From positions 1 to 20,133 of IMG/VR virus record IMGVR_UViG_3300043100_000038: DNA of 20,133 nt; one strand, written 5' to 3'. The notes under the pieces are model-generated. The model was not told the origin of the DNA and made no database searches. It saw only the letters and a program-made list of their open reading frames with translations. Each line of letters starts with the position of its first letter. Within the stretch, counting starts at the first letter, position 1. This document shows positions 2,932-19,692 of the stretch, piece by piece. The position numbers were made by a program, and so were the translations under genes. The stretch comes from a virus.

Positions 2932-2958
2932 CCGTCAGTCTTTGGCCTCGAAACCCTT

Positions 2959-4692
2959 ATGAAACAAGCCTCTCAAGCCGCCGCGAAGCGTTCGCGGGCC
3001 ACCGCTTCGGCCACCCCTGCAGCATCACGCCGCCTCTATAGCTATTTCCGTTTCAGTGACAAGCGGCAAGGCAAGGGAACCAGTCTTGAGCGGCAGACCA
3101 AAGGCGCGCGCGAGTATGCGGTGACCCATGGTTATGTGTTCGATGAAAGCCTCACGATGCGCGATCTCGGCACATCCGCTTACCGTGGAAAAAACGCCGA
3201 CCCGCGCAGTGAGTTCGGTGCGTTTCTCGCGGCCATCGAGGGGGGTGCGGTGCCGCGTGGTTCGGTGCTCTATGTCGAATCGCTCGACCGGCTTTCACGG
3301 CAGCACGTGCTGCGCGCGATGGCGCAACTCACGCTCATCATCGAGAACGATGTGACCATTGTCACCGGTGTCGATGGCATGGAATACAGCCTCGAAGTGA
3401 TTGAAAAAAACTCGGGCATTCTCTTCATGGCAATGGGCATCATGATGCGGGCTAATAACGAGTCATCACAGAAAAGCCAGCGTGCCAACGACACGCTGCT
3501 CGGCAAGTGCGAGCGGTGGCAGAAAGGTGAACGCGGGTTTTATATCCCGGCAGGCATCAACCCTTCATGGGTGCGCTACCTGACTGAAGAGAAGCGGTGG
3601 GAGTTCAATGAGGAAAAGGCCGAACCGATCCGCGCGGCAATCCAGTTTTTTCGTGAAGGGCACGGCGGCCTCGGCATCATGCGAAAACTTGCCGAGCAGT
3701 TTGGCAAGGTGGACGGTATCGGCAACATGAGCCGGGTTTATCAGGTGATGCGCAACCGGGTATTGACCGGCGAAAAAAAGCTCACCGTTAAAGGCAAGGT
3801 ATTCACGCTCGTGGGCTATTACCCGGCACTGCTCAGTGAGGCAGAATTCGCAAGCCTGCAATACCTGCTCGACCAGCGCGGCGGCGGGCGGCAGGTGCGC
3901 GGTGACTTCGGCAACATTCTCACCGGCAACGGCCTCGCGTGCTGCGGTTACTGCGGCAACGTCTATTCAGCGCAGAACATGCGCAACCGGGCGGGCACCG
4001 GATGGCACCGCCGCCTTCGGTGCATGGGCAACGTGGGCCTTGAGAATCACTGCCGCTTTGCCAGTGTTCGCCTGCCTGCCATTGAGCGCGCCATCATTCA
4101 CTACTGCGGCGATCAGGTGAACCTTTCCACACTACTCGCGGGCAACGATCCGCGCACCGGCCTTGAGGGGCAATTGGCGCTCGCTCGTGGCGAAGTGCGC
4201 AGGCTCGAAGGTGAAATGAAAAGCCTGATGCGCTCGCTCGCCAAAGTCACCGATGAGATACAGCGCGAGTTCTATGAACAGGAATCGGGTGAGATCGCGG
4301 GCCACCTGAAAAAGCGGCGCGAAGAAGCGGCACACCTTGAGCGCGAACTGGCGAATGCGCAGGCGGTGGCTATTCCTGCCGCTTCGGAGTTGTGGCAGCA
4401 GATCGCGGCGGGGGTTGATGCGCTCGACCTTGATGACCGGATGACCGCCCGCCGCCTGCTTCATGAGACATTCAAGAAAATCAATGTGTACAGCCGGGGC
4501 GTGCCTGCGAGTGACGACGCAAAAACCGTCGTGATTGAACTTATCTCACGCCGTGACACAAGCCGGGTGTTGGAGATCAACGGCAGCACCGGCGAATTAC
4601 TGCGTGAGGCCATCGAACTCGCGGACCTCGCACACGTGCCTGACGCACCGGTCGCGCGCAACGCGCGGACCACAAAAAAGCGCGCCGCATAA
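2959..4692 (+). CDS. Large serine recombinase (phage integrase)
   Basis: This 577-aa protein has the full large-serine-recombinase layout. After a basic N-terminal tail comes the catalytic resolvase domain (about 26-180), with YSYFRFSDK (Arg31 and the likely nucleophile Ser33), TSLERQ, and the ESLDRLSR arginine motif near 111-118. The 'recombinase' DNA-binding domain follows (about 200-310). A zinc ribbon has CCGYC near 328 and LRC...NHC near 354-366. A long coiled coil (about 390-460) may control attP/attB synapsis. Such enzymes integrate phage DNA at attB by double-strand cleavage through a 5'-phosphoserine link. No Shine-Dalgarno precedes the ATG. It is flanked by a promoter-like repeat upstream and a strong terminator downstream, so it is a single-gene unit. 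Confidence 0.95.
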   Translation: MKQASQAAAKRSRATASATPAASRRLYSYFRFSDKRQGKGTSLERQTKGAREYAVTHGYVFDESLTMRDLGTSAYRGKNADPRSEFGAFLAAIEGGAVPRGSVLYVESLDRLSRQHVLRAMAQLTLIIENDVTIVTGVDGMEYSLEVIEKNSGILFMAMGIMMRANNESSQKSQRANDTLLGKCERWQKGERGFYIPAGINPSWVRYLTEEKRWEFNEEKAEPIRAAIQFFREGHGGLGIMRKLAEQFGKVDGIGNMSRVYQVMRNRVLTGEKKLTVKGKVFTLVGYYPALLSEAEFASLQYLLDQRGGGRQVRGDFGNILTGNGLACCGYCGNVYSAQNMRNRAGTGWHRRLRCMGNVGLENHCRFASVRLPAIERAIIHYCGDQVNLSTLLAGNDPRTGLEGQLALARGEVRRLEGEMKSLMRSLAKVTDEIQREFYEQESGEIAGHLKKRREEAAHLERELANAQAVAIPAASELWQQIAAGVDALDLDDRMTARRLLHETFKKINVYSRGVPASDDAKTVVIELISRRDTSRVLEINGSTGELLREAIELADLAHVPDAPVARNARTTKKRAA

Positions 4693-9410: not shown

Positions 9411-9451
9411 TGTCCTACTCCCTGTGAATAACTTGCCGTGAATGAGTGCGG

Positions 9452-9480
9452 ATAATAGGAATACGCCGCAGCGGTTTCAA
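9452..9480 (-). promoter_or_regulatory. Near-consensus leftward promoter for recombination operon
   Basis: On the minus strand TTGAAA (9480-9475), a 17-bp spacer and TATTAT (9457-9452) match the sigma-70 consensus at 5/6 in each hexamer. Transcription would start near 9445, about 35 nt before the first gene of the operon. The -10 overlaps a DnaA-box-like 9-mer (TGCGGATAA, 9447-9455), so DnaA or an initiator could regulate it. Confidence 0.78.
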
Positions 9481-9543
9481 TGCCTTTTTTTTGGGGCCTG
9501 ATTTTTAAATGCACCGCACAATCGGTGGATAACTTTTAATCAA

Positions 9544-9576
9544 AAGGGGCATCGAAGGGGCATCGAAGGGGCTTCG
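9544..9576 (+). repeat. 11-bp direct repeats (AAGGGGCATCG family), locus 1
   Basis: Three tandem 11-bp units are present, AAGGGGCATCG twice and AAGGGGCTTCG once. They are non-coding and lie inside the origin-like region. Identical or near-identical units recur within the O-like gene and before the endolysin gene. Confidence 0.9.
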
Positions 9577-9703
9577 GAATTTTGTTCCGGCCCATCATGC
9601 GGCGCGCATACGTCATACCCGCCGAAAGCCCTGCCCGGTGGATAACTCAGGCCGGTTATGCGAAATAGGTGCCATATATTGCATCGCGTCACGGCGCAGG
9701 TGC

Positions 9704-9730
9704 AACCGCCGTTTTAAGCGGGTTTTTTTT
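9704..9730 (+). terminator. Terminator-like hairpin with T8 tract in origin region
   Basis: CCGC and GCGG arms (9706-9709, 9718-9721) flank an 8-nt loop and are followed by one G and eight T (9723-9730). The stem is short, so termination is uncertain. If active it would stop rightward RNA from the 9480-9700 region, perhaps an origin primer or small RNA. Confidence 0.4.
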
Positions 9731-9786
9731 CATCAGGGTTTTCCCTTTAAATTAACCCGTGCGGCGCACAAAATGAGTGGTTTGCG

Positions 9787-9811
9787 GGGTGTCTGAATGC
9801 ACAGGACACCC
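9787..9811. promoter_or_regulatory. Inverted repeat GGGTGTC-N11-GACACCC, candidate operator
   Basis: Perfect 7-bp arms (9787-9793 and 9805-9811) are separated by 11 bp, giving 18 bp between half-site starts, or about 1.7 turns. This suits a dimeric repressor or initiator. It lies upstream of the perfect DnaA-box pair and the rightward operon. No protein is assigned. Confidence 0.4.
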
Positions 9812-9917
9812 GGCAATGTCAATACCCATAAGGCGCGCATAAAACCTGTGGATAACTAGGCACTTATCCACAAGCAGCGAATGCTTTCAGGAAACCGCTT
9901 TCACGTGCTTTACGCGT

Positions 9918-9946
9918 TTGATTTGAATGCGGATAAGGCCTATTTT
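9918..9946 (+). promoter_or_regulatory. Possible rightward promoter for replication operon
   Basis: TTGATT (9918-9923), a 17-bp spacer and TATTTT (9941-9946) each match 4/6 of the sigma-70 hexamers. The spacer contains a DnaA-like 9-mer. RNA would start near 9953, about 34 nt before the 26-aa leader ORF. It is weak by consensus and is listed because of its correct position and spacing. Confidence 0.35.
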
Positions 9947-9986
9947 TCTAAATCCGATCACCGGCAATGCAGCAGGGAGAGCCACC

Positions 9987-10067
9987 ATGAACACCGCACC
10001 AACGGGACAGCGCCACCCCCCTTTTATACGCCTCACCGATGGGCCTGCACTGCATAACGCCTCGTGA
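9987..10067 (+). CDS. 26-aa leader ORF coupled to the O-like initiator
   Basis: An ATG at 9987 has AGGGAG about 8 nt upstream, the same kind of ribosome-binding site used by confirmed genes here (for example before 13508 and 18824). The peptide MNTAPTGQRHPPFIRLTDGP... has 26 residues and stops at TGA 10065-10067. That TGA overlaps a GTG (10064) that is the first in-frame start of the next gene. I recognise no domain. It may be a real micro-protein or a leader whose translation controls initiator synthesis. The ribosome-binding site and the overlap are the only evidence. Confidence 0.45.
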   Translation: MNTAPTGQRHPPFIRLTDGPALHNAS

Positions 10068-10078
10068 CGGGGGCGCAC

Positions 10079-11230
10079 ATGCAAGCGCGCAATTACGGGC
10101 GAGTCATGCCCGAATACTGGACCGGGCGCACCGGCCAGCGCATCCAGAAACACGGACCCGAAGCCGTGGTTGTGGGTGCCTATCTCATGTCAAGTCCGCA
10201 CAGTACGATGCTCGGTCTCTATCACCTGCCGCTGCTCTACATCGCGGAAGAAACCGGGCTCGGTTTTGAAGGGGCATCGAAGGGGCTTCAGGGGTGCATC
10301 GATGCGGGTTTCTGCAGCTACGATCACGGCACCCGTTTCGTGTGGGTGCACGAGATGGCGCGCTTCCAGATCGCGGACCATCTTGAGGCCAGCGACAAGC
10401 GTGTCAAGTGGATGCAAAAACTCTATGACGGCATGCCCGAAAATCCGTTTCTCACACCGTTTTTCGAGCACTATCACCGCGCGTTCAAACTCACCAACCG
10501 GCGCGTCTTTTCGCCCGATTCACTTAGCACAACTACAAGCCCCTTCGAAGGGGCATCAATGCCCCTTGCAAGCCCCTTCGAAGGGGCATCGAAGGGGGTG
10601 GGTGAAAAAGGCCCATCGAAGGGGTTGAAAAAGCAAGGGGCATCCAAGGGGCATCCAAGGGGCATCGAAGCCAGAAGCAGTAGCAGTAGCAGTAAACCCA
10701 GTGGTAAGGATAAGCCTTTGATACATCAAACCTCAGTGGTTGGGTTAGTTGGGTTGGTGGAAAAAGCAAGCCCCATCGAAGGGGCATCGAAGGGGCTTCA
10801 CGCGTTATCGCCAGCTTCGAGCGCAGAACCGCACGCCGACAAAGCGGCGCGCGGCACTCGCCTGCCGACCGGGTGGGTTTTGCCGCTGCCGTGGGGGCAT
10901 TGGGCGATGACCGAATGCGGGTTCGATGAGCACCGGGTGCGCGAGATCGCGGTGACGTTCGCGGACTACTGGCACGCGGTGGCGGGCGCGAAAGGTGTCA
11001 AGCTCGACTGGCTCGCCACGTGGCGCAACTGGTGCCGCAAAGAGCGCGATTACATCGCACAGGGCAACGGCCACCGCGCGAACGGCGCGGCCTACGACGA
11101 GCGCAGCCGTGACCGCAAACAGGCCTTTGCGGAACTGACGGGCGAAGCATCGGGCGATGACATACCGCCCGCCGATGTGGTCGACGTCGAAGCGCGTGAG
11201 GTGAGCCGTGACGCCATCACCAAGCATTAA
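10079..11230 (+). CDS. O-like phage replication initiator with internal iteron-like repeats
   Basis: This protein of about 383 residues starts at ATG 10079 behind a GGGGG stretch; a GTG at 10064 is an alternative start. The N-terminal domain (to about residue 130) has a winged-helix look (MQARNYGRVMPEYWTGRTGQ ... LGLYHLPLLYIAEETGLGF ... IDAGFCSYDHGTRFVWVHEM), like phage O/DnaD-type initiators. The middle is low complexity: 11-bp DNA repeats are translated as repeated EGASKG / SPFEGASKG units, then a Ser run. The C-terminal part has LDWLATWRNWCRKERDYI, a motif typical of phage replication proteins that contact the helicase loader. In lambda the origin iterons also lie inside gene O. The downstream P-like gene overlaps its end. 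Confidence 0.75.
   Translation: MQARNYGRVMPEYWTGRTGQRIQKHGPEAVVVGAYLMSSPHSTMLGLYHLPLLYIAEETGLGFEGASKGLQGCIDAGFCSYDHGTRFVWVHEMARFQIADHLEASDKRVKWMQKLYDGMPENPFLTPFFEHYHRAFKLTNRRVFSPDSLSTTTSPFEGASMPLASPFEGASKGVGEKGPSKGLKKQGASKGHPRGIEARSSSSSSKPSGKDKPLIHQTSVVGLVGLVEKASPIEGASKGLHALSPASSAEPHADKAARGTRLPTGWVLPLPWGHWAMTECGFDEHRVREIAVTFADYWHAVAGAKGVKLDWLATWRNWCRKERDYIAQGNGHRANGAAYDERSRDRKQAFAELTGEASGDDIPPADVVDVEAREVSRDAITKH
10269..10301 (+). repeat. 11-bp direct repeats, locus 2 (inside initiator gene)
   Basis: Three consecutive 11-bp units run AAGGGGCATCG, AAGGGGCTTCA and GGGGTGCATCG; the last is degenerate. They encode EGASKGLQGCI in the initiator N-terminal domain, so the repeat lies inside folded-domain coding sequence and not only in the linker. 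Confidence 0.8.
10537..10667. repeat. Iteron-like array with two perfect 16-bp palindromes, locus 3
   Basis: About nine 11-bp units occur in both orientations. GCCCCTTCGAAGGGGC, a perfect 16-bp palindrome, is at 10539-10554 and again at 10572-10587, exactly 33 bp (three units) apart. Further direct units lie at 10581-10591, 10635-10645, 10646-10656 and 10657-10667. The array encodes the low-complexity linker of the initiator and is the best candidate for initiator-binding sites. Confidence 0.88.
10768..10800. repeat. 11-bp repeats, locus 4 (inside initiator gene)
   Basis: Three units run AAGCCCCATCG, AAGGGGCATCG and AAGGGGCTTCA. The first two form an almost perfect 16-bp palindrome (10770-10785). 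They are in the linker-coding part of the initiator, about 100 bp after locus 3. Confidence 0.85.
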
Positions 11231-11741
11231 AACGCGCGGCCAGTGGATTTTCACGAAAATGGCGTCGATATACGGCGCGCGTTTTCTCGACATGTGGCGC
11301 GATGTGAACCGCACCGAAGCCGAAACGATGTGGACGCAGGCCATGCACGGCATGAGCGACGAAGCAATCCGGCGCGGCATTGCAAAACTTTTTCACACAC
11401 CGAAGCCGCCCACGCTGCCCGAATGGATCGCACTGTGTGCGCCCGAGCCTGCCATGTATCGGCAGCATCACCTTGCGCTCACTGATGACCGCCGCACATC
11501 ACCCGAGCAGGCGCGTGAGCAGCTTGCGCACATCCGCGAACTCGCCAACGGGATACTGCAGCAGCACGAGGTGCCAACCGGGCGCGGCATCCGGTGGGCT
11601 TACCGGCTACTGCAGCGCGCGGCGCAGGGTGAGCCCATCACCGCGCATCAGATCGGCTCTGCGAAAGATGCCATTGAGGCCTATGCGCCCACGCACGGCA
11701 CGATGCAGCGTGATCGCATTCCAGGCAGTGATGATGAGTGA
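11208..11741 (+). CDS. P-like replication protein, probable helicase loader
   Basis: This 177-aa protein starts at GTG 11208, with GAGG 6 nt upstream, overlapping the initiator gene by 23 bp. It has SIYGARFLDMWRDVNRTEAETMWTQAM, then SDEAIRRGIAKLF and PPTLPEWIALCAPEPAMY. The order 'GxxFxxxW...W...L/M-x-G-x3-I-x2-G-x4...PPTLPEFxxLC' resembles lambda P-like proteins, which bring host DnaB to the origin. The C-terminal third (RGIRWAYRLLQRAAQGE...) is helical. No Walker motif is present, which excludes a DnaC-type ATPase. Position after an O-like gene supports the role, but similarity to P is only partial. Confidence 0.62.
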   Translation: MTPSPSIKTRGQWIFTKMASIYGARFLDMWRDVNRTEAETMWTQAMHGMSDEAIRRGIAKLFHTPKPPTLPEWIALCAPEPAMYRQHHLALTDDRRTSPEQAREQLAHIRELANGILQQHEVPTGRGIRWAYRLLQRAAQGEPITAHQIGSAKDAIEAYAPTHGTMQRDRIPGSDDE

Positions 11742-12402
11742 GATCGTGAGCCCGGTGACCATCGGCACCGCTACGCTCTATCATGCGGACTGCCGTGACG
11801 TGCTGCCGCTGCTGCCTTCGTTCGATGCGGTGATAACCGACCCGCCCTATGGCATCGATTACCCGGCACGCGCCACGCAGTACCGACGCATGAATGGGCT
11901 TGCCGGTGAATCCTGGGATGCCGAACCATTCGGCCCGCTCGATGACGTTATCGCCAAGGGCGCGAAGGTGGTGGTATGGGGTGGCAATCATTACGCGCTG
12001 CCACTGAGCCGTTGCTGGTTTGTTTGGCACAAGCCCGATGGGCCGCCATCGTTTTCGCGCGTCGAACTCGCATGGACGAATCTTGACCGGCTCGCCGGGT
12101 ATTTCCGCCACACGGTGTCGGCCACGAATCCCGAGCGCTGCGGCCACCCCACGCAAAAACCGCTTGCGCTCATGGCGTGGTGCATCGCGCAAGCTGGTGC
12201 GCCTCGCACGATACTCGACCCCTTCATGGGCAGCGGCACCACGGGCGTGGCAGCGGTGCGCATGGGTTGCGAGTTCACCGGCATCGAATGCCGCCGCGAT
12301 TATTTTGAAATGGCCTGCGAGCGCATCGAGCACGCGCAACGCCAGGGTGCGCTATTCGATCACGAGCCGCTGCGCGACTTCGAGCAAGGGGCATTGCTAT
12401 GA
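11734..12402 (+). CDS. DNA adenine-N6/cytosine-N4 methyltransferase (DPPY type)
   Basis: This 222-aa protein starts at ATG 11734; an adjacent ATG at 11731 is equally possible. The catalytic motif FDAVITDPPYGIDY lies near residue 36, and the AdoMet-binding motif ILDPFMGSGTTGVAAVRMG is in the last third, preceded by HPTQKPLALMAWCI. Catalytic motif before the FxGxG-type motif is the beta-class order of phage amino-methyltransferases. The short middle section is the target-recognition part. It probably methylates phage DNA against host restriction or alters regulation. No restriction partner is adjacent. It overlaps the P-like gene upstream and RusA downstream (ATGA). Confidence 0.92.
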   Translation: MSEIVSPVTIGTATLYHADCRDVLPLLPSFDAVITDPPYGIDYPARATQYRRMNGLAGESWDAEPFGPLDDVIAKGAKVVVWGGNHYALPLSRCWFVWHKPDGPPSFSRVELAWTNLDRLAGYFRHTVSATNPERCGHPTQKPLALMAWCIAQAGAPRTILDPFMGSGTTGVAAVRMGCEFTGIECRRDYFEMACERIEHAQRQGALFDHEPLRDFEQGALL

Positions 12403-12896
12403 GCACGCGCGTGTGCTTCACCATCAGGGGCGAGCCTGCGAGCAAGGCCAACTCACGCGAGATCGTGGCGCGCAAATACCGCGATGCGCAGGGCAAGGTG
12501 CGCACCCGGCCCATGAGCATCAAGAGCGACAAGGCGCGCGATTACGAGCGCACGGCCATGCTGCAGATACCCGCACACGCACGTGTGCAACTCACCGGCC
12601 CGGTGCGCGTGATCCTGCGGATTTACTACGCGAGCGAACGGCCTGACCTCGATGAGTCGGTGATTCTCGATGCCCTGCAATCGAAGTATCGGACCGTCAA
12701 GCGCAACGGCAAGCCGGTGCGCGAATGCCTGCGCGAAGGCGTTTTTATCAACGACCGGCAGGTGCGGCAGAAATTTGTTTTTCACGGTATTGACCGCGCC
12801 AACCCGCGCGCCGAGATCACCGTGGAGCCCCTGCAGGCGCAGCAGATCGCGCTTGCGCTAGAACCCGATTACGACCCGTTTGAGGCCATCGCATGA
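12399..12896 (+). CDS. rusA: RusA-family Holliday-junction resolvase
   Basis: This 165-aa protein has an N-terminal FTIRGEPASKANSR strand-turn typical of RusA. It carries the acidic core ERPDLDESVILDAL (Asp83, Asp85, Asp91) and GVFINDRQVRQKF (Asp119). The DLD...ND pattern matches the catalytic aspartates of E. coli RusA, a dimeric Mg2+-dependent endonuclease that resolves four-way junctions. The segment between the two motifs (SKYRTVKRNGKPVRECLRE) is longer than in E. coli RusA. RusA enzymes are common in lambdoid early regions, where they process replication and recombination intermediates. The start overlaps the methyltransferase stop (ATGA). Confidence 0.92.
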   Translation: MSTRVCFTIRGEPASKANSREIVARKYRDAQGKVRTRPMSIKSDKARDYERTAMLQIPAHARVQLTGPVRVILRIYYASERPDLDESVILDALQSKYRTVKRNGKPVRECLREGVFINDRQVRQKFVFHGIDRANPRAEITVEPLQAQQIALALEPDYDPFEAIA

Positions 12897-13105
12897 ACCT
12901 GCCACGCACCCAACCGCTAGTTGCCCACGCACATGCCGTGCACCTGCGGCACGAAAACGAGCGCATGCGTGAAGCGTTAGACCTCATCGCAAAGATGAGC
13001 GAACACAGCACAAGCGCGCTCGTGCTGCAGGATGTGGCGCGCATTGCCCGCAACGCGCTCGGGCCGGTGTATCCACCGAACCCGGCATTAACGATTGAGG
13101 TTTGA
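12893..13105 (+). CDS. Small hypothetical protein, 70 aa
   Basis: This 70-aa protein begins MNLPRTQPLVAHAHAVHLRHENERMREALDLI. The ATG overlaps the RusA stop by 4 bp (ATGA). The sequence is one long charged, probably coiled helix followed by a short helix (SALVLQDVARIARNALG). I know no domain. It resembles the short helical filler proteins common in phage early operons. Confidence 0.6.
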   Translation: MNLPRTQPLVAHAHAVHLRHENERMREALDLIAKMSEHSTSALVLQDVARIARNALGPVYPPNPALTIEV

Positions 13106-13109
13106 AGCC

Positions 13110-13511
13110 ATGAACGATTCATCGAAAACAGGCGCGGCATGGGTCTCGCCTACATCCGCCGATCACGCCGACCTCAAGGCGCTCGCGCGGCACACAGTCT
13201 CATCGCGCGCCATGCTCGATGTGATCGGTGAGCGTGTGCGGCAGGTGACGGACCTCGGTTACACCGCCGATCACGATGACGTGCACGCCGATGGCTCGCT
13301 CAGTGAGGCCGCCGCCGTGTTCGTGCTCAACGCCTACGGATACAGCACGCACACCTTCGGCTATGGGAGCCTGAATGTGTGGGATGCCTGGGGCGTGGCG
13401 TGGTTCAAGCCGAAGAGCCTGCGGCGCGATCTCGTGCGCGCGGCGGCGCTCATCATCGCGGATATCGAACGGATTGACCGCAGTGAAACACCCAAGGGAG
13501 AGCAACCATGA
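13110..13511 (+). CDS. Conserved phage protein ('DD.H...E' family, EaA-like C-terminus)
   Basis: This 133-aa protein starts at ATG 13110, 4 bp after the previous stop. A TTG five codons upstream is in frame but poor. Key parts are IGERVRQVTDLGYTADHDDVH, SLSEAAAVFVLNAYG and WFKPKSLRRDLVRAAALIIADIERIDR. The pattern 'ER-x-RQ...GxTxxHDD-x-H...LxxAA...W-x-KP...RRDLVxAxALIxAEIERxDR' is widespread in temperate phage early regions and forms the C-terminal part of lambdoid EaA proteins. Its HDD acidic core hints at a metal-dependent helical fold, possibly nucleotide-related, but no activity is known to me. Confidence 0.75.
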   Translation: MNDSSKTGAAWVSPTSADHADLKALARHTVSSRAMLDVIGERVRQVTDLGYTADHDDVHADGSLSEAAAVFVLNAYGYSTHTFGYGSLNVWDAWGVAWFKPKSLRRDLVRAAALIIADIERIDRSETPKGEQP

Positions 13512-14542
13512 GCGAAGCCGCACCGAGTCAAACAGCACGCCGCGAAGAGATACGCGCGGCCATTGAAGCCGATCCGACTGCCACCAACACCGCCATTGCG
13601 AAGCGCCTGAATGCCGCGCGCGATACGGTGATTGATGTGCGCCGAAGCCTTACCGGAACCACCGCGCCCGCCACTGACGAAGCGCCCGAGATCGATGTTT
13701 TTTCGCTGCCCGTGCATCCATGGGCCGCGCGCTTTCCGATGCGCGCCGACGATGATCTCGATGCAATGGCGCAGAGCATCAAGGCGAACGGCCTGCGCAT
13801 TCCGGTGGCGCTCGGCAATGCCGTGCTCGAAGCGGGCACCGAGCCCGTGCTATGCGTGATCGATGGGCGCAACCGAATTGCAGCATGCCAACGTGCGAAC
13901 ATCAGGCCGGATTACGTCATGCTCAACGGTGAAGATCAGGACGCATTTATAGCGGATGCCAACCTTGAGCGGCGCGACCTCTCGAAAGGGCAAAAAGCCA
14001 TGCTTTTCGCGTGGCGAATTCCCGAAGCGTCAAAAGGTGGGCGCGGAAAAAAGGCGCTAGAAACTAGCGCCTTTTCTCGCCAGCGTGTTGGGCAGGCTCG
14101 CACGGTGCTGCAGTTTTGCCCCGAAATGGTCGATTCGGTGATTGACGGCACGATTGGCCTTGATGATGCCTATGCCGAAGCGAACCGGCGCAAGGCGGTG
14201 AAGCAATCGCACGAAGGCCGGTTTGCCGAACTGCAGGCGAAAGATGCGGACCTTGCCGAACTCGTGCGCGAAGAGCGCATTTCAATCGCCAACGCCGAAG
14301 CCGAGCTACGTGACCGCATCGCGCGGGCCGAAAACGAACTACGCAGCGCCATCGCGCAGGTGCGCGACTTCGAGCAGCGCATCGGCTCATTTCACGGGGT
14401 GCACGCGCAAAAGCTCGCCGCGCTCTACCGGGACCATCACGCAGAATTCACCACCGGTGATCTTGCGGGCGATATCGCGCGATGGATTGAGGTGCTAACA
14501 GCTTTTCAGGTGGAGATTGAAAATGAGCAAGCGGCAGCCTGA
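13508..14542 (+). CDS. ParB/sulfiredoxin-fold nuclease-like phage protein
   Basis: This 344-aa protein has an N-terminal HTH-like segment (about 23-47, ATNTAIAKRLNAARDTVIDV). A ParB-like domain follows (about 62-155), with LDAMAQSIKANGLRIPVAL and CVIDGRNRIAAC (DGRNR at 119-123), then the ParB-type NLERRDLSKGQKAM and a second HTH near 188-205 (SRQRVGQARTVLQF). A long coiled coil runs from about 235 to 290. ParB-like domains bind CTP and DNA or act as nucleases. In phages they are often regulators, and no parA is present here, so partition is unlikely. AGGGAGA precedes the ATG, which overlaps the upstream stop. A perfect hairpin lies inside the gene at 14049-14075. Confidence 0.83.
   Translation: MSEAAPSQTARREEIRAAIEADPTATNTAIAKRLNAARDTVIDVRRSLTGTTAPATDEAPEIDVFSLPVHPWAARFPMRADDDLDAMAQSIKANGLRIPVALGNAVLEAGTEPVLCVIDGRNRIAACQRANIRPDYVMLNGEDQDAFIADANLERRDLSKGQKAMLFAWRIPEASKGGRGKKALETSAFSRQRVGQARTVLQFCPEMVDSVIDGTIGLDDAYAEANRRKAVKQSHEGRFAELQAKDADLAELVREERISIANAEAELRDRIARAENELRSAIAQVRDFEQRIGSFHGVHAQKLAALYRDHHAEFTTGDLAGDIARWIEVLTAFQVEIENEQAAA
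14049..14075 (+). repeat. Perfect 12-bp-stem hairpin inside the ParB-like gene
   Basis: AAAAGGCGCTAG (14049-14060) and CTAGCGCCTTTT (14064-14075) are exact inverted copies around an AAA loop. With six A before and four T after, it has the form of a bidirectional intrinsic terminator. It lies in the coding sequence, between the NLERRDLSKG region and the second HTH. Confidence 0.85.
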
Positions 14543-15044
14543 AGCCATCAAGGCGGTGATTGCAGAACTTGAGCAGGAATGCGCGCCCGCGCTTCAAAGC
14601 TATCTCGAAGCACGCGGCACCTATGGGCCTGATGATGAAGTGCTCGCGCGCGTGGTGAACGATCTATTGCGGCAGAACTCGCTTGCCATGCAACACGCCA
14701 CCTCTGCGATGTCACTCATGATCGCGCAGCACTTCGTTGAGCGCACCGACCGTGACAACCTTTCGTGTGCCCAACTACAGATGTTCGATACCGCTGCGGA
14801 CGTGCGTGAGTTTTTGCGCCATGCCACCCACCGGTGTGGCGATGGCACGACCATTCTGCAATCGTTCATGACGCGCGAGCAGGTGATTGCACGGCATGAG
14901 CGCAAGCGCACGAACAAGGCCCGCGTCGATGCGGCTTTTGACGAAAGCCAGCGCTTTACCGATGGCATCCTGCATTACATGGATGCGGGCTTGAGTTATG
15001 AAGATGCGGCGGTATCGCTGCGCGATGAACTCGCCACATCATGA
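14523..15044 (+). CDS. Hypothetical helical phage protein
   Basis: This 173-aa protein starts at ATG 14523, with GGAG 8 nt upstream, overlapping the ParB-like gene by 20 bp. It is predicted almost fully helical, with many charged heptads (KAVIAELEQECAPALQSYLEARG; SAMSLMIAQHFVERTDRDN). No catalytic motif, Cys cluster or membrane helix is seen. I do not recognise it. Coupling to the ParB-like gene upstream and the zinc-finger gene downstream (ATGA) makes an accessory regulatory role plausible but unproven. Confidence 0.65.
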   Translation: MSKRQPEAIKAVIAELEQECAPALQSYLEARGTYGPDDEVLARVVNDLLRQNSLAMQHATSAMSLMIAQHFVERTDRDNLSCAQLQMFDTAADVREFLRHATHRCGDGTTILQSFMTREQVIARHERKRTNKARVDAAFDESQRFTDGILHYMDAGLSYEDAAVSLRDELATS

Positions 15045-15325
15045 GCGGCCATCAGCCCGAAGGCGGCGAACTGCCACCGCCGCCCGCATCGAAGCGCCTG
15101 CACAAGTGCGAATGGCCCGGTTGCGAGCGCGTCATATCGCGCTCGATGTGGGGGTGCCGCGCGCACTGGTATGCGCTGCCGAACAACCTGCGCGCATGGA
15201 TCGGGCGCGCGTACCGGTACGGCATCGACACCGGCACACACCCCACGCGCAGCTATGTCGACGCACACCGCGCCGCGCTCGCATGGGTGGCCGAACGTGA
15301 AGCGGAGAACAAGCATGAATCCTAA
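15041..15325 (+). CDS. Small zinc-finger-like phage protein
   Basis: This 94-aa protein carries HKCEWPGCERVISRSMWGCRAHWYALPNNLRAWIGRAY. Cys-x4-Cys, then Cys-x2-His, is a probable single zinc site, and HW-x-xLPxxLRxxIxxAY is a conserved tail I have seen in several phage proteins of unknown function. The remaining C-terminus is a short charged helix. The start overlaps the previous stop (ATGA), and the 3' end overlaps the next gene by 11 bp. Nucleic-acid binding is likely from the fold but unproven. Confidence 0.72.
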   Translation: MSGHQPEGGELPPPPASKRLHKCEWPGCERVISRSMWGCRAHWYALPNNLRAWIGRAYRYGIDTGTHPTRSYVDAHRAALAWVAEREAENKHES

Positions 15326-15620
15326 AGACCGTGACGATTTGCGTTTTGGTGATGTTATCGAATGTTTGCATCTTTCAACGGGTACGACTAACGCGCTATT
15401 GCGCAGCAGGATCGGAACGATTGACGCCTTATGCGCACAGACCCGTAGCAGCCTGATGAAAATCGAAGGTATTGCAACCGGTAGTGTTGAGCACATCAGG
15501 GCAGCACTCGCAAACCGGTGCGGTCGCGCATTAACGGGTGATCGTGACGATCCGCAGAAAATCGAACGCAGGCACAGAGAATTTATCGCGTATCTGACCG
15601 AACACAACATTGAGTTATGA
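15315..15620 (+). CDS. RNA polymerase alpha-subunit C-terminal-domain-like small protein
   Basis: This 101-aa protein starts at ATG 15315; the frame is open further upstream but only as shadow sequence. Residues 17-70 align well with the RpoA alpha-CTD, for example LHLSTGTTNALLRSRIGTIDAL and LMKIEGIATGSVEHIRAAL against bacterial 'L-x-L-[ST]-x-R-[AS]-x-N-x-L-x...I-x-x-[IV]-G-x-L...LLK-x-x-x-x-G-x-KSL-x-E-I-K'. In my alignment the UP-element Arg (E. coli R265) is Gly and N268 is kept. No N-terminal RpoA domain is present, so it cannot assemble core enzyme by itself. It may bind host RNA polymerase or DNA. The DNA looks less GC-rich than its neighbours, suggesting a separate origin. It overlaps the next gene (ATGA). 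Confidence 0.8.
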   Translation: MNPKDRDDLRFGDVIECLHLSTGTTNALLRSRIGTIDALCAQTRSSLMKIEGIATGSVEHIRAALANRCGRALTGDRDDPQKIERRHREFIAYLTEHNIEL

Positions 15621-16786
15621 GCATGTTAATGCGCTCGCCTCTCGTGTTCGGCTCGGTGTGCAGCGGTATCGAAGCCGCTTCATGCGCCTGGCTGCCGCTC
15701 GGGTGGCGGTGCGCTTTTGTTTCGGATATCGACGCATTTTCCTGCGCCTTGCTCGCCCATCGTTATCCCGATGTGCCGAACCACGGCGATATGACCGCAC
15801 ACACGGGGTGGCCTCATGCAACTCTCGATGTTTTCGCCGGGGGAACTCCCTGTCAGAGCTACAGCGTCGCCGGCAGCAGAGCAGGCCTGGACGATGAGCG
15901 TGGTGCACTCATGCTCGCCTTCGCTCACCTTGCTCACCGATACGCTGCCCGCTGGGTCGTTTGGGAAAATGTCGCCGGGGTTTTGTCAGTGGACAACGGA
16001 CGGGCTTTTGGTGCCCTGCTCGGGACACTGGCAAAGCTCGGGTATGGGTTCGCATACCGGATTTTTGACGCTCAATTCTTCGGCCTGGCCCAGCGCCGCA
16101 ACCGTGTGTTCGTTGTCGGATATCCTGGAGACTGGCGAGCACCTGCGGCGGTACTTTTTGAGCGCGCGGGCCTGCTCGGGCATCCTGCGCCGCGCCGCAA
16201 AGCGGGGCAAAGTATTACCGGCACACTTGGCGCACGCACTTCGGCAGGTGGCGGGCTCGGCACCGACTTCGAATGTGATGGAGGCCTCATCGGCAACACG
16301 CTCACCGCCAGTAGCGGTCGTCACGTAAGCCATCACACGACGCTCGTGCCCGAAGTGGCAGGCGCGCTCACCGGCAGCAACGAGCGGCAGGATGCCGCCG
16401 TTGAGACTTTCGTGATTGCCCACACGCTGCGCGCCGATGGCTTCGATGCAAGTGAGGATGGCACCGGGCGCGGCACGCCGCTTGTGCCAATTGCCTTTGG
16501 CGGGCAGATGTCGACGCCGTTCATGAGCAGTGATTTGAGCAACACGCTCCAGGCCAAAAATCCGGCAGCAGTTTCGCAACCCGGTGTCGGTGTGCGCCGC
16601 CTCACGCCGCGCGAATGCGAGCGCCTGCAGGGCTTTCAGGATGACTACACACTCATACCGTATCGCGGCGGGCTCGCTGCCGATGCGCCGCGATATCGTG
16701 CGCTCGGCAACTCGATGGCGGTGCCGGTGATGCGGTGGATAGGCGAGCGCATTGCCATGGTTGATTCAATCCTGACGGGGCCATGA
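15617..16786 (+). CDS. C5-cytosine DNA methyltransferase
   Basis: This 389-aa protein has all the core motifs. Motif I is FGSVCSGIEAASCAW (about 11-25), motif IV is GGTPCQSYSVAG with catalytic Cys79, motif VI is WENVAG (Glu117, Asn118), motif VIII is QRRNRVFVVG (about 159-168), motif IX is RRLTPRECERLQGFQ, and motif X is YRALGNSMAVPV. Between VIII and IX, about 150 residues form the target-recognition region with repeated 'x-x-TLxA' elements. The enzyme moves a methyl group from AdoMet to C5 of cytosine. No partner nuclease is adjacent, so it is an orphan phage methylase, likely for protection from host restriction. It overlaps the genes on both sides (ATGA). Confidence 0.95.
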   Translation: MSMLMRSPLVFGSVCSGIEAASCAWLPLGWRCAFVSDIDAFSCALLAHRYPDVPNHGDMTAHTGWPHATLDVFAGGTPCQSYSVAGSRAGLDDERGALMLAFAHLAHRYAARWVVWENVAGVLSVDNGRAFGALLGTLAKLGYGFAYRIFDAQFFGLAQRRNRVFVVGYPGDWRAPAAVLFERAGLLGHPAPRRKAGQSITGTLGARTSAGGGLGTDFECDGGLIGNTLTASSGRHVSHHTTLVPEVAGALTGSNERQDAAVETFVIAHTLRADGFDASEDGTGRGTPLVPIAFGGQMSTPFMSSDLSNTLQAKNPAAVSQPGVGVRRLTPRECERLQGFQDDYTLIPYRGGLAADAPRYRALGNSMAVPVMRWIGERIAMVDSILTGP

Positions 16787-17391
16787 TGGACGGGGAAATA
16801 ACCTTTGAATCGGCATTCGATGCGGTGCGCTTCGCACTGAGCTATTCGGTGCAGCAGTATGGCGAGACGCTCATGTGCAAGCGCTTCGGCGGCCCGCCGC
16901 TCGGCAGCGGCATGGGCCTCACCGGCCTCGATGGCGCGGGGCAGGCGGGCATGATCCGGCGCGCACTGTGGGAGTTACCCGACCTCTATCTCGCGGTGCT
17001 CGTGGCGCGCGCCGCGCCGCGTGATACCCCGTGTGCCTGTGGTGCGGCATGCTGCTCGAAACACCGGCCTAATCCCGAGTGGCAGGCGGTGGTTGGATGG
17101 CTCACCGAGCAGAGCGCCGCGCACGTGGGTGGCTTCTCACACTACCAAGTGCGCCGCGCGATCATCGAGCGCATTTTCGGCTCGCACGATGACCTCAAGA
17201 CCATCGCGCAGCGGTGTGACGTGCACCGCAACACCGTGGGCAACCACTTCGCGGCGGTGCGCCTGTGGCTCGAAGGCAAGCGCGGGCGCAAGGGCATCCA
17301 GGCGCAGGCCGGGGTGATCGACCTCGCGTGGCAGGCCATCGAAACGCAGCTTGCGCCGCTCGGCATTCTGCCCACACAGGAAAGTGCGTAA
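16783..17391 (+). CDS. HTH/Cys-containing protein, probable late antiterminator (Q-like) by position
   Basis: This 202-aa protein starts at ATG 16783 (ATGA overlap), with a second ATG at 16786. The N-terminal half has CKRFGGPPLGSGMGLTGLDGAGQ and a Cys cluster, CACGAACCSKH (about 84-94), suggesting zinc. The C-terminal half has LKTIAQRCDVHRNTVGNHFAAVRLWLEG, a typical HTH. It is the last gene of the early operon and sits directly before a strong promoter-terminator pair leading to lysis genes, the place held by Q in lambda. I do not recognise a known Q family, so the antiterminator role is inferred from context. It may also be a general DNA-binding regulator. Confidence 0.65.
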   Translation: MMDGEITFESAFDAVRFALSYSVQQYGETLMCKRFGGPPLGSGMGLTGLDGAGQAGMIRRALWELPDLYLAVLVARAAPRDTPCACGAACCSKHRPNPEWQAVVGWLTEQSAAHVGGFSHYQVRRAIIERIFGSHDDLKTIAQRCDVHRNTVGNHFAAVRLWLEGKRGRKGIQAQAGVIDLAWQAIETQLAPLGILPTQESA

Positions 17392-17403
17392 TGCCAATGA
17401 ATC

Positions 17404-17431
17404 TTGACAATTGCACCGCATGCACAATAAT
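17404..17431 (+). promoter_or_regulatory. Strong late promoter, pR'-like
   Basis: A perfect TTGACA (17404-17409), a 16-bp spacer and AATAAT (17426-17431, 5/6) make this among the best sigma-70 matches in the window. RNA would start near 17438, in a short imperfect palindrome (17434-17449, GTGT...ACAC around ATCGAT). It is followed about 30 nt later by an intrinsic terminator. Confidence 0.82.
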
Positions 17432-17467
17432 CGGTGTCAATCGATACACGTGACCGCTGCGCCCAGA

Positions 17468-17501
17468 ACCCGCCAACCGCTTACAGCGTGGCGGGTTTTT
17501 T
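17468..17501 (+). terminator. Intrinsic terminator downstream of late promoter, tR'-like
   Basis: AACCCGCCA (17467-17475) pairs with TGGCGGGTT (17489-17497), with an inner CGC/GCG stem and six T (17496-17501). It would end the early operon and also stop the short RNA from the promoter at 17404-17431 unless antitermination occurs. Confidence 0.9.
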
Positions 17502-17515
17502 CATGACACCCGCCC

Positions 17516-18193
17516 ATGCTTGAGTTCAATATTCGCGCCGATGTGCGCCGCTTCACGAAGCAGGTGAACGGCTTCATTGAGAAGCAGGTGCCCTTTGCCA
17601 CGGCCATGGCAATCAATGCCGTGGCGGTGAAGGTGCAGGCCGCCGAAAAGGAGAGCATGAAAGACACGTTTGACCGGCCCACGCCTTTCACGGTCAACTC
17701 GGTGGCGGTGAAAAAAGCCACCAAGGCCACGCGCACGGCCGTGGTGTACATCAAACCCGTGGCGGCAAAGTTTCTGCAGCCTTACGCCGAAGGCGGCCCG
17801 CAGGTGCTACCCGGCACGAGCCGCGCGGTGCTCAATCCGAAAGACGCAGGATTGCTCAACAAATACGGCGGCATACCGCGCAACGCCATCGCGCGCCTGC
17901 GGGGCCGCTCTGATGTGTTTATCGGCACCGTGACCACCAGGGGCGGCGGGCAGATTGATGGCGTTTGGCAGCGCGCCGCGAAGCCGCGCAAGCTCACGCG
18001 CGGCGGCAGGCGGCCCAAGCTGCCACGCGGCTCGAATACCACCGGGCGGCTCAAGCTGCTCATCCGCTTCACCGATCCGCAGCCGGTGCGCAAGCGCCTG
18101 CCGTTCGGTGACACCGCCGCCGAGATCATCAACCGCGATCTGCAGCCCGAGTTTGACAAGGCACTCGCGCGCGCCGTGCAGAGCGCGAAGTAA
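17516..18193 (+). CDS. Conserved phage protein, probable tail/head-completion component
   Basis: This 225-aa basic protein begins MLEFNIRADVRRFTKQVNGFIEKQVPFATAMAINAVAVKVQ. The 'Q-x-PFAxAxAxN-x-x-A-x-x-VQ ... FxRPTPFTxxSVxxKxATKxxxxAxVxIKP' pattern recurs in temperate-phage proteins near lysis and structural genes. It also has LQPYAEGG, IPRNAIARLRG and a basic C-terminus rich in Lys/Arg/Pro. I know of no demonstrated function; a virion-assembly role is inferred. The ATG at 17516 lacks a clear ribosome-binding site. It is the first gene after the late promoter and terminator. Confidence 0.66.
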   Translation: MLEFNIRADVRRFTKQVNGFIEKQVPFATAMAINAVAVKVQAAEKESMKDTFDRPTPFTVNSVAVKKATKATRTAVVYIKPVAAKFLQPYAEGGPQVLPGTSRAVLNPKDAGLLNKYGGIPRNAIARLRGRSDVFIGTVTTRGGGQIDGVWQRAAKPRKLTRGGRRPKLPRGSNTTGRLKLLIRFTDPQPVRKRLPFGDTAAEIINRDLQPEFDKALARAVQSAK

Positions 18194-18211
18194 AAAGCAT
18201 GCCTGCTGCTG

Positions 18212-18258
18212 CTTATCGGCCCTTATCGGCCTTATCGGCCTTATCGGCCTTATCGGGC
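18212..18258 (+). repeat. Tandem 9-bp repeats (CTTATCGGC x5)
   Basis: Five copies of CTTATCGGC occur at 18212, 18222, 18231, 18240 and 18249, with one or two extra C/G between some units. They lie in the 91-bp gap between the structural-type gene and the holin-like gene. They could be replication-slippage DNA, or act on translation of the holin-like gene, which lacks a ribosome-binding site. Confidence 0.9.
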
Positions 18259-18284
18259 CGCCACCCGTAAAAGCTCACCCTCAC

Positions 18285-18812
18285 ATGATGTTCGATTCCG
18301 CCATGGCGCTCGTGGGCGCGCTCGGTGGTGGTCTGCTGCGCCTCGTGCCGGAACTCATCAAGGTGTATCTGCACCGCACCGATGACCGCACACACGTGAA
18401 GCTCGCTGAAATCCAGCTCGAACTACAGCAGACACGCGAAACGCTTGACGCAGCGGCGAGCGCTGCGCAGGCGCAGCGTGCCGAGATCGTGCGCCGCATG
18501 GCCCAGCGTGATGCCGACGCCGCCGCTGCCGAAATCACCGCACCGCCCGCACCGCTGCCCGCGCCGCAGATCGCACTACCGCGCGAGCGTGGCCGGTGGG
18601 TTGAGGCAGCGGTGACTTTCTGGCTACTGGCGATTTACACCGGATTCAAGGCGGTGCTCATGTGGGAAGCCTCATCACAACACGTCACCGCCGCCGTGCT
18701 CGCGCCGCTCATATGGGGTGATGACGACTGGACGATTTTTAGCGGCGCTATCACTTACTGGTTTATTGACCGCACGTTATCAACGCCTGACGCGCGCAAC
18801 CCTTCGAAATAG
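18285..18812 (+). CDS. Holin-like membrane protein (GTA/3-TM holin type)
   Basis: This 175-aa protein starts at ATG 18285; ATG 18288 is equally possible. It has a hydrophobic N-terminus (about 6-26), a charged coiled coil (30-80, ending in an Ala/Pro-rich spacer), a membrane segment AVTFWLLAIYTGFKAVLMW (about 109-127) and a second one, about 150-165 (TIFSGAITYWFIDRTL). The order 'coiled coil, then two hydrophobic segments ending in ITYWFxDR' resembles the GTA/3TM-holin family, whose members make holes in the inner membrane so that endolysin can escape. No ribosome-binding site precedes the start; the 9-bp repeats are directly upstream. The endolysin gene follows nearby. Confidence 0.68.
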   Translation: MMFDSAMALVGALGGGLLRLVPELIKVYLHRTDDRTHVKLAEIQLELQQTRETLDAAASAAQAQRAEIVRRMAQRDADAAAAEITAPPAPLPAPQIALPRERGRWVEAAVTFWLLAIYTGFKAVLMWEASSQHVTAAVLAPLIWGDDDWTIFSGAITYWFIDRTLSTPDARNPSK

Positions 18813-18823
18813 GGAGATTCGCC

Positions 18824-18973
18824 ATGATTACGCTCTCACTGCTGCTGCTCGTGGTGGCGCTCGTGCTGTTCGTGCTCGCCGCGCTCGCGGTGCCGGTGCC
18901 GCGCGTCAATCTCGTGGCGGCGGGCCTTGCTTGCTGGGTGCTCGCGCAGATCATCGGGCAGATCGTCCGATAA
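18824..18973 (+). CDS. 49-aa two-helix membrane protein
   Basis: This 49-aa protein starts at ATG 18824, with AGGGAG 7 nt upstream, and stops at 18971-18973. It is almost entirely hydrophobic, MITLSLLLLVVALVLFVLAA followed by VPVPRVNLVAAGLACWVLAQII. Two membrane segments are joined by a short Pro/Arg/Asn turn. Similar small phage proteins with 'RVNLxxxGLAxWVLxxII' are known to me as unassigned membrane proteins in lysis regions. It may be a second holin or antiholin. The endolysin gene starts 50 bp later, after an 11-bp repeat array. Confidence 0.72.
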   Translation: MITLSLLLLVVALVLFVLAALAVPVPRVNLVAAGLACWVLAQIIGQIVR

Positions 18974-19015
18974 GCCCCTTCGAAGGCCCTTCGAAGCCCC
19001 ATCAAAGCCCCTTCG
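18972..19015 (-). repeat. 11-bp repeats, locus 5 (before endolysin)
   Basis: Four tandem 11-bp units occur: AAGCCCCTTCG, AAGGCCCTTCG, AAGCCCCATCA and AAGCCCCTTCG. They are the complement of the AAGGGGCATCG family seen in the origin and initiator gene, 8 kb away. They occupy the gap between the 49-aa membrane protein stop and the endolysin ATG at 19024, leaving no room for a normal ribosome-binding site. Confidence 0.88.
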
Positions 19016-19023
19016 GTGTCCCG

Positions 19024-19692
19024 ATGATCCTGACGCTATCCCAACTCGCGGATGCAGTGCCGCGCGCCAACGCACACGCGTGGCTCGATCCGCTCAACCA
19101 GGCCGCTGCCGAGTTCGGCATTGACTCGCCCGAAAACTTCGCCGCCTTTCTCGGGCAGTGCGGCCACGAGTCTGCCGACTTCACCCGGCTCACCGAAAAC
19201 CTCAACTACTCGGCGCAGGGTTTGGCGAACACGTGGCCGGGGCGTTATAGCGATACCAACCGCAGCGGGCAGTTAGTGCCCAATGCGCTCGCGCTGCGCC
19301 TTAACCGGCAACCCGAAGCCATCGCAAATAACTGCTACGCCAACCGCATGGGCAACGGCAGTGAGGCAAGCGGTGACGGATGGCGGTTTTTGGGCCGGGG
19401 AATTTTACAAATAACTGGCCGGGATAACTACACCCGCGCCGCTGCCGCGCTCGGGCTCGATCTCGTGAACACACCGGCTCAGGCCGCTATTCCTGCCTAC
19501 GCTGCGCGCATTGCGGCATGGTGGTGGGTGGAGCACGGCGCATCACCACACGGTGAGGTGTGCGACTGGCTTGCATGCTCACGCCTCGTGAATGTGGGCA
19601 ATGCACGCAGCAGCGTTATCCCGCACGGATGGCCTGACCGCAAGACGCGTTCAGACCTCGCATACGCGGCACTCACTGCCGCACGGGTGTGA
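19024..19692 (+). CDS. Endolysin, GH19 chitinase-like (peptidoglycan muramidase type)
   Basis: This 222-aa protein starts at ATG 19024; the open frame extends upstream but only as repeat-coded sequence. It matches phage GH19 lysins. FAAFLGQCGHESADFTRLTENLNYSAQ holds the likely catalytic Glu49 and Glu58. WPGRYSD, then GRGILQITGRDNYTRAAAALGLDL and AARIAAWWWVEHG follow. GH19 lysins cleave the glycan strands of peptidoglycan. No signal peptide or SAR segment is seen, so export depends on a holin, in line with the upstream membrane proteins. No Rz/Rz1 spanin pair was recognised. There is no clear ribosome-binding site; the 11-bp repeats fill that place. Confidence 0.93.
   Translation: MILTLSQLADAVPRANAHAWLDPLNQAAAEFGIDSPENFAAFLGQCGHESADFTRLTENLNYSAQGLANTWPGRYSDTNRSGQLVPNALALRLNRQPEAIANNCYANRMGNGSEASGDGWRFLGRGILQITGRDNYTRAAAALGLDLVNTPAQAAIPAYAARIAAWWWVEHGASPHGEVCDWLACSRLVNVGNARSSVIPHGWPDRKTRSDLAYAALTAARV

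Follow-up and report, generated by a model that had tools for sequence, protein, structure and literature searches.

An 11-bp iteron family within a phage initiator gene: a candidate in-gene origin that includes codons of the predicted recognition helix

Iterons lying within an initiator gene are a principle already known from lambda O, SPP1 gp38 and pSK41 Rep (PMC7466680, PMC6316719, PMC5703833). In SPP1, gp38 binds direct repeats inside gene 38 (oriL) and also the intergenic oriR, some 13 kb away (PMC6316719), while in the RepA_N plasmid pSK41 the Rep boxes are located centrally within rep, in the region that encodes the linker (PMC5703833). In bacterial oriC, the DnaA-trio is formed by triplet repeats with a fixed A beside the initiator boxes (PMC10797057). 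Here we analyse 11-bp repeats in a phage sequence of 20,133 bp, hereafter the window, which is a whole IMG/VR record and, like other such records, may be a fragment. We propose, with a probability of roughly 85% and on the basis of sequence comparison, that these repeats are the origin iterons of the phage's own initiator, and that site 1, site 2 and an adjacent tract form an origin within its gene. An earlier sequence-only reading had suspected a protein-binding site or origin iteron in the initiator gene, and this suspicion is strongly supported by the comparison of homologues presented below.

Repeat units and the initiator of the window

About 22 units of the repeat, with the core AAGGGGC[T/A]T, are found at five places in the window (Table 1), which is far above chance: AAGGGGCATCG with at most two mismatches occurs at 25 sites against 8.2 +/- 2.9 expected from shuffles, and none of 100 shuffles reaches 25. 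The perfect 16-bp palindrome GCCCCTTCGAAGGGGC, of which 0.01 copies are expected, has exact copies at 10539 and 10572, spaced by 33 bp, and inexact ones at 10770 (one mismatch) and 18974 (two mismatches). The individual units of Table 1 were obtained by a scan for GAAGGGGC[A/T]TC with at most one mismatch, and the degenerate units between them come on top. The same 11-bp register is filled in either orientation, as GAAG-GGG-CTTC or as GAAG-CCC-CTTC; since the two forms share their ends, the register is kept through orientation flips, and the 16-bp palindromes are such flips without loss of phase. These counts and positions bear out the roughly 20 repeats at five loci, the 11-bp period in both orientations and the two perfect palindromes described in the sequence-only reading. 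Its placing of the repeats in non-coding DNA holds for the intergenic arrays at 9543-9575 and 18971-19014 only, three of the five loci (10268, 10536-10667 and 10767-10800) being inside the initiator gene; there, site 1 does encode EGASKG as had been claimed, within EGASKGL (residues 61-67).

Table 1. Arrays and neighbouring features of the window (unit starts from the scan for single units)
Feature	Position	Strand	Description
Intergenic region	9422..10078	.	657 bp; 7 DnaA-box-like sites out of 9 in the record; GC 52% vs 60%
Upstream intergenic array	9543..9575	+	three units (9543, 9554, 9565), ~0.5 kb (-545) before initiator gene
Initiator (O-like) gene	10079..11230	+	winged-helix N-terminal domain, linker with iterons, C-terminal domain akin to primosomal / RepA-like initiators
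Site 1	10268..10289	+	two head-to-tail iterons (10268, 10279) in EGASKGL codons (predicted recognition helix)
Site 2	10536..10666	both	about ten iterons; units 10536(-), 10547(+), 10569(-), 10580(+), 10634/10645/10656(+); perfect 16-bp palindromes at 10539-10554 and 10572-10587
T-poor tract	10667..10700	+	GAAGCCAGAAGCAGTAGCAGTAGCAGTAAACC, A-phased with a 3-base period; adjoins site 2 on its 3' side
Third in-gene array	10767..10799	both	one - and two + units (+ units 10778, 10789); one-mismatch palindrome at 10770-10785
Next gene	11208..11741	+	weakly P-like helicase loader (phrog_109, E 6e-4)
Distal array	18971..19014	-	four degenerate units (18971, 18982, 18993, 19004); exactly fills the gap from a 49-codon ORF (18824-18973) to the endolysin start (19024)
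GH19-type endolysin	19024..19692	+	adjoins distal array

The product of the initiator gene matches no family in Pfam, RepA_N included, or in NCBIfam. Its N-terminal domain (aligned region 10088-10507) matches PHROGs 25210 (3e-60), 12196 (9e-56) and 1701, annotated 'DnaD-like helicase loader' (1e-42), and its C-terminus matches PHROGs 3992 and 1408, 'replication initiation', as well as 'primosomal' families. The AF2 model of the N-terminal domain, built from a 50-sequence alignment (pLDDT 94.9), is a winged helix with helices at residues 49-56 and 59-72 and wing strands at 76-79 and 84-87; by winged-helix topology, helix 59-72, which contains EGASKGL, is predicted to be the recognition helix. 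Structure matches in BFVD include phage replisome organizers ('Replisome organizer', TMq 0.69, E 4e-4); the Foldseek matches in the PDB are weak (4pql and 4pta, E 0.2-0.5), and a search by sequence for relatives of solved structure gave none that is meaningful. In isolated phages, genes of CI/Cro/CII type are followed by the initiator homologue and then by DnaC or a primase-helicase. The early region of the window also encodes an N-type and a C5 DNA methyltransferase along with a ParB-like protein (11380-12402, 15617-16786 and 13508-14542), and a serine integrase is encoded at 2959-4692. For close relatives of the window itself, IMG/VR gave only a C-terminal match.

Conserved in-gene sites and additional arrays

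One IMG/VR scan gave 522 relatives, and the prophage hosts belong to the alpha-, beta- and gammaproteobacteria, among them Acinetobacter, Klebsiella, Providencia and Rhizobium; a search with the profile through evenly drawn genomes yielded few homologues, mostly distant, and the distant homologues L257-L260, L262 and L268 are without such a repeat. Comparison of 190 distinct homologues shows that the arrays are conserved at two fixed in-gene places, site 2 being about 255 bp downstream of site 1. The units of site 1 are almost all forward (303 + vs 5 -), those of site 2 stand in both orientations (166 + / 188 -), and neighbouring units are 11 bp apart in every orientation (++ 214, -- 66, -+ 14, +- 6). 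Outside the two sites, 54 units were counted against about 56 estimated by chance at one mismatch. Site 2 of the window is expanded, its 11 core units being the joint highest number among the homologues compared. Compensation of a missing site 1 by more site-2 units was considered and is not supported (3.5 vs 3.0 units, p 0.43).

The linkage of the motif to the initiator is shown by searches with the exact 22-base double unit, which is present in at least 120 IMG/VR stretches; 118 of the 120 matches listed encode an initiator homologue. The same 22-mer occurs at 24 places in 84,980 prokaryote genomes, and a homologue stands alongside at 18 of them, while the five genomes holding the remaining six have none genome-wide. 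An even spread of the motif in hosts, which the sequence-only reading had considered as speaking against any special role, is rejected by this count. At L130, one of the six places without a homologue, the motif belongs to a hairpin that resembles a terminator. Two Lysobacter species carry the double unit at homologous chromosomal loci (L143 831-1080 and L148 1887-2136), without an initiator homologue in the genome. In four further loci (L236, L247, L237 and L246), the same iteron lies in the linker of initiators missed by the family profile, hinting that it may be common to more than the recognised domain.

For the codon test, homologues were picked by protein patterns only, at less than 80% identity, and the sample is free of motif-selection bias; many other loci were found through the motif itself. 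At site 1 of these homologues, E is encoded by GAA in 16/16 (45% expected in the same domains) and K by AAG in 16/16 (65% expected), and the Gly codons are GGG in 16/16 and 12/16 (22% expected; p 3e-11 for 16/16), while the Ser codon drifts to Leu, Thr or Lys. Site 2 occurs across homologues in both orientations and in all three frames, and hence encodes differing peptides. At the level of sequence comparison, the codon bias and the orientations and frames of site 2 show that the DNA itself is under selection at both sites. In the 13 representatives that lack site 1, helix 3 has a different sequence, never with EGASKG, and among the representatives this peptide always came with the DNA motif. 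Because of the codon bias, the three frames of site 2 and the absence of EGASKG where site 1 is missing, it appears that the sequence of the recognition helix is set by the DNA, and not the reverse. Homologues such as L042, L080 and L117 differ strongly in helix 3 and retain this iteron at site 2; recognition therefore cannot depend on the residues of the EGASKGL helix alone.

Of 92 representatives, 92% have a tract that immediately adjoins site 2 on its 3' side, typically AAGCCAAGAGCAGGAACAGGAGCAGG in the family, and that ranks higher than the 99th percentile of the controls; the phased A is at codon position 2 in 70, position 3 in 18 and position 1 in 4 of the 92. It usually encodes QEQEQE; in the 22/92 with another A phase the peptide differs, the window encoding SSSSSS and others TGTGTG. 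The tract is mostly not A+T-rich across members, unlike that of lambda, and we infer that it may serve as an unwinding or single-strand-loading element. A further A-phased tract near the distal array (18838-18880, minus strand) was set aside as an effect of hydrophobic codons. In the contig L100 (5.6 kb, with no initiator homologue), a small, unrelated ORF has at its 3' end a site-2 array and a CAGGAA tract (2958-3207). This arrangement suggests a portable cis element, and L100 is possibly a satellite or decoy exploiting the initiator of a helper phage.

Two arrays of the window lie outside the gene. The region of the upstream array holds seven DnaA-box-like (TTATCCACA-like) sites, three of them exact TTATNCACA at 9423, 9847 and 9864. 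This cluster was found in the window alone among 173 homologue loci tested, the others having at most three boxes, and is therefore rejected as a family trait; it suggests a host-DnaA-assisted origin or a plasmid-like prophage. The distal array is about 8 kb from the initiator gene. In whole-record scans of about 150 related records, the arrays among the matches listed are located within the initiator gene or shortly before it, except in the window and in record G002, whose intergenic arrays (70666 and 73960; L006 2861-2915) are 8 and 11 kb away from that gene. The earlier proposal that the site is dispersed and more than an origin iteron consequently stands for the window and falls for the family, within these listed matches. 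Such a dispersed site would be mostly particular to the window phage, and it resembles SPP1 oriR.

Proposed origin function and alternative readings

We infer initiator binding, DNA melting and a role of the extra arrays as follows. Copies of the initiator would bind successive 11-bp registers on one face of the helix, and the resulting nucleoprotein complex would melt the DNA at the adjacent A-phased tract, one strand of which would then be bound. The helicase loader from the next gene would recruit the host helicase, in the manner of lambda ori or SPP1 oriL. The same initiator probably also binds the upstream array in the DnaA-box cluster, which could be a second or host-assisted origin or act in autoregulation, and probably the distal array by the endolysin, which could be a second origin or a fork-pausing site comparable to SPP1 oriR. 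More tentatively, and at somewhat less than even odds, it can be hypothesised that the system is a dual-coded origin, in which the DNA encoding the recognition helix of the initiator is also bound by that initiator and selection on the origin sets the helix residues. Together with site 2 and a triplet-phased single-stranded DNA element, this would constitute a distinct class of origin, to which the window would add the SPP1-oriR-like distal site and the DnaA-box cluster.

The high conservation of EGASKGL, its position in a helix and the encoding of QEQEQE by most members could also be explained at the protein level, EGASKG and QEQEQE being kept for protein function and the DNA repeat being a by-product. 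We consider this very improbable, given the near-invariant synonymous codons against backgrounds of 22-65%, the use of either orientation and of every reading frame at site 2, the tracts that encode TGTGTG or SSSSSS in other frames, the intergenic copies of the window, and the site 2 and tract of L100 at the end of an unrelated ORF. A role of the arrays as operators controlling transcription, bound by a repressor or by the initiator mainly as an autoregulator, would suit the arrays upstream of the gene in the window and, just upstream, in three others (L045 at -73, L243 at -62 and Acinetobacter phage B1251 at -42); such upstream arrays are rare, however, two in-gene arrays with the tract are the rule, and a position inside the gene is characteristic of such origins as lambda ori and SPP1 oriL, which makes this role quite improbable.

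We give very little credence to the reading of the motif by a host factor instead of the initiator: the motif is unchanged where helix 3 differs and the hosts are alpha-, beta- and gammaproteobacteria, as this would allow, but it is scarce in hosts outside the prophage gene. For the two intergenic arrays of the window only, a further reading would make them terminators of transcription, hairpins formed in RNA or random relics. In favour of this, the distal array is degenerate, a terminator-like match (9563-9577) overlaps the upstream array, and the similar L130 sequence forms a terminator-like stem. On the other hand, a check of the distal array gave no terminator-like or promoter-like site and its RNA fold is not unusual (z -1.4), leaving a terminator or RNA-structure reading unsupported there, and both arrays keep three to four units in strict 11-bp register; we hold this explanation to be unlikely, and retain origin iterons as the preferred reading.

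Comparison with known origins

The closest arrangement is that of lambda ori and O, and of the O of Stx phages, where, as in the window, mid-gene iterons are followed by a T-poor, A-rich tract and then by the helicase-loader gene (PMC7466680). The lambda ori differs in having four to six iterons of 18 bp in the middle of O and an AT-rich tract, and iterons in recognition-helix codons, as at site 1 of the window, are not described there. Homology with lambda O was rejected (hhalign probability 0.2%, E 0.32; no Pfam match). From its published description, SPP1 gp38 is a precedent for one protein acting at an in-gene and a distant intergenic origin, like the distal array of the window, and the window initiator model has replisome-organizer matches in BFVD; SPP1 differs by its AT-rich unwinding element. 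The RepA_N plasmids have, like the window, an N-terminal DNA-binding domain, with weak Foldseek matches (4pql, 4pta). They are staphylococcal, and a site in the DNA-binding domain is not described there; membership of this group was not found for the window initiator (best Foldseek E ~0.2, no RepA_N match in Pfam). The phage tract is reminiscent of the DnaA-trio by its triplet repeats with a fixed A beside the boxes. It differs in that the strand with the A leads away from the boxes in the 5'->3' direction, an opposite polarity by our reading, that most members are without T preference, and that DnaA is not implicated in the family. No description of the motif in a phage context was found in open-access papers, subscription papers being outside the scope of the search. 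As far as the open-access literature shows, four elements are new: the motif itself, its layout in two sites across the family, the placing of one site within codons of the predicted recognition helix, and the triplet tract. With them, a large family of temperate phages, with an initiator that is missing from Pfam and carries annotations such as hypothetical or 'DnaD-like', gains a sequence-defined candidate origin, and they offer a clear case of one DNA stretch being both a conserved cis site and the codons of a predicted recognition helix. The conserved triplet tract bears on how a phage origin may open without an AT-rich element.
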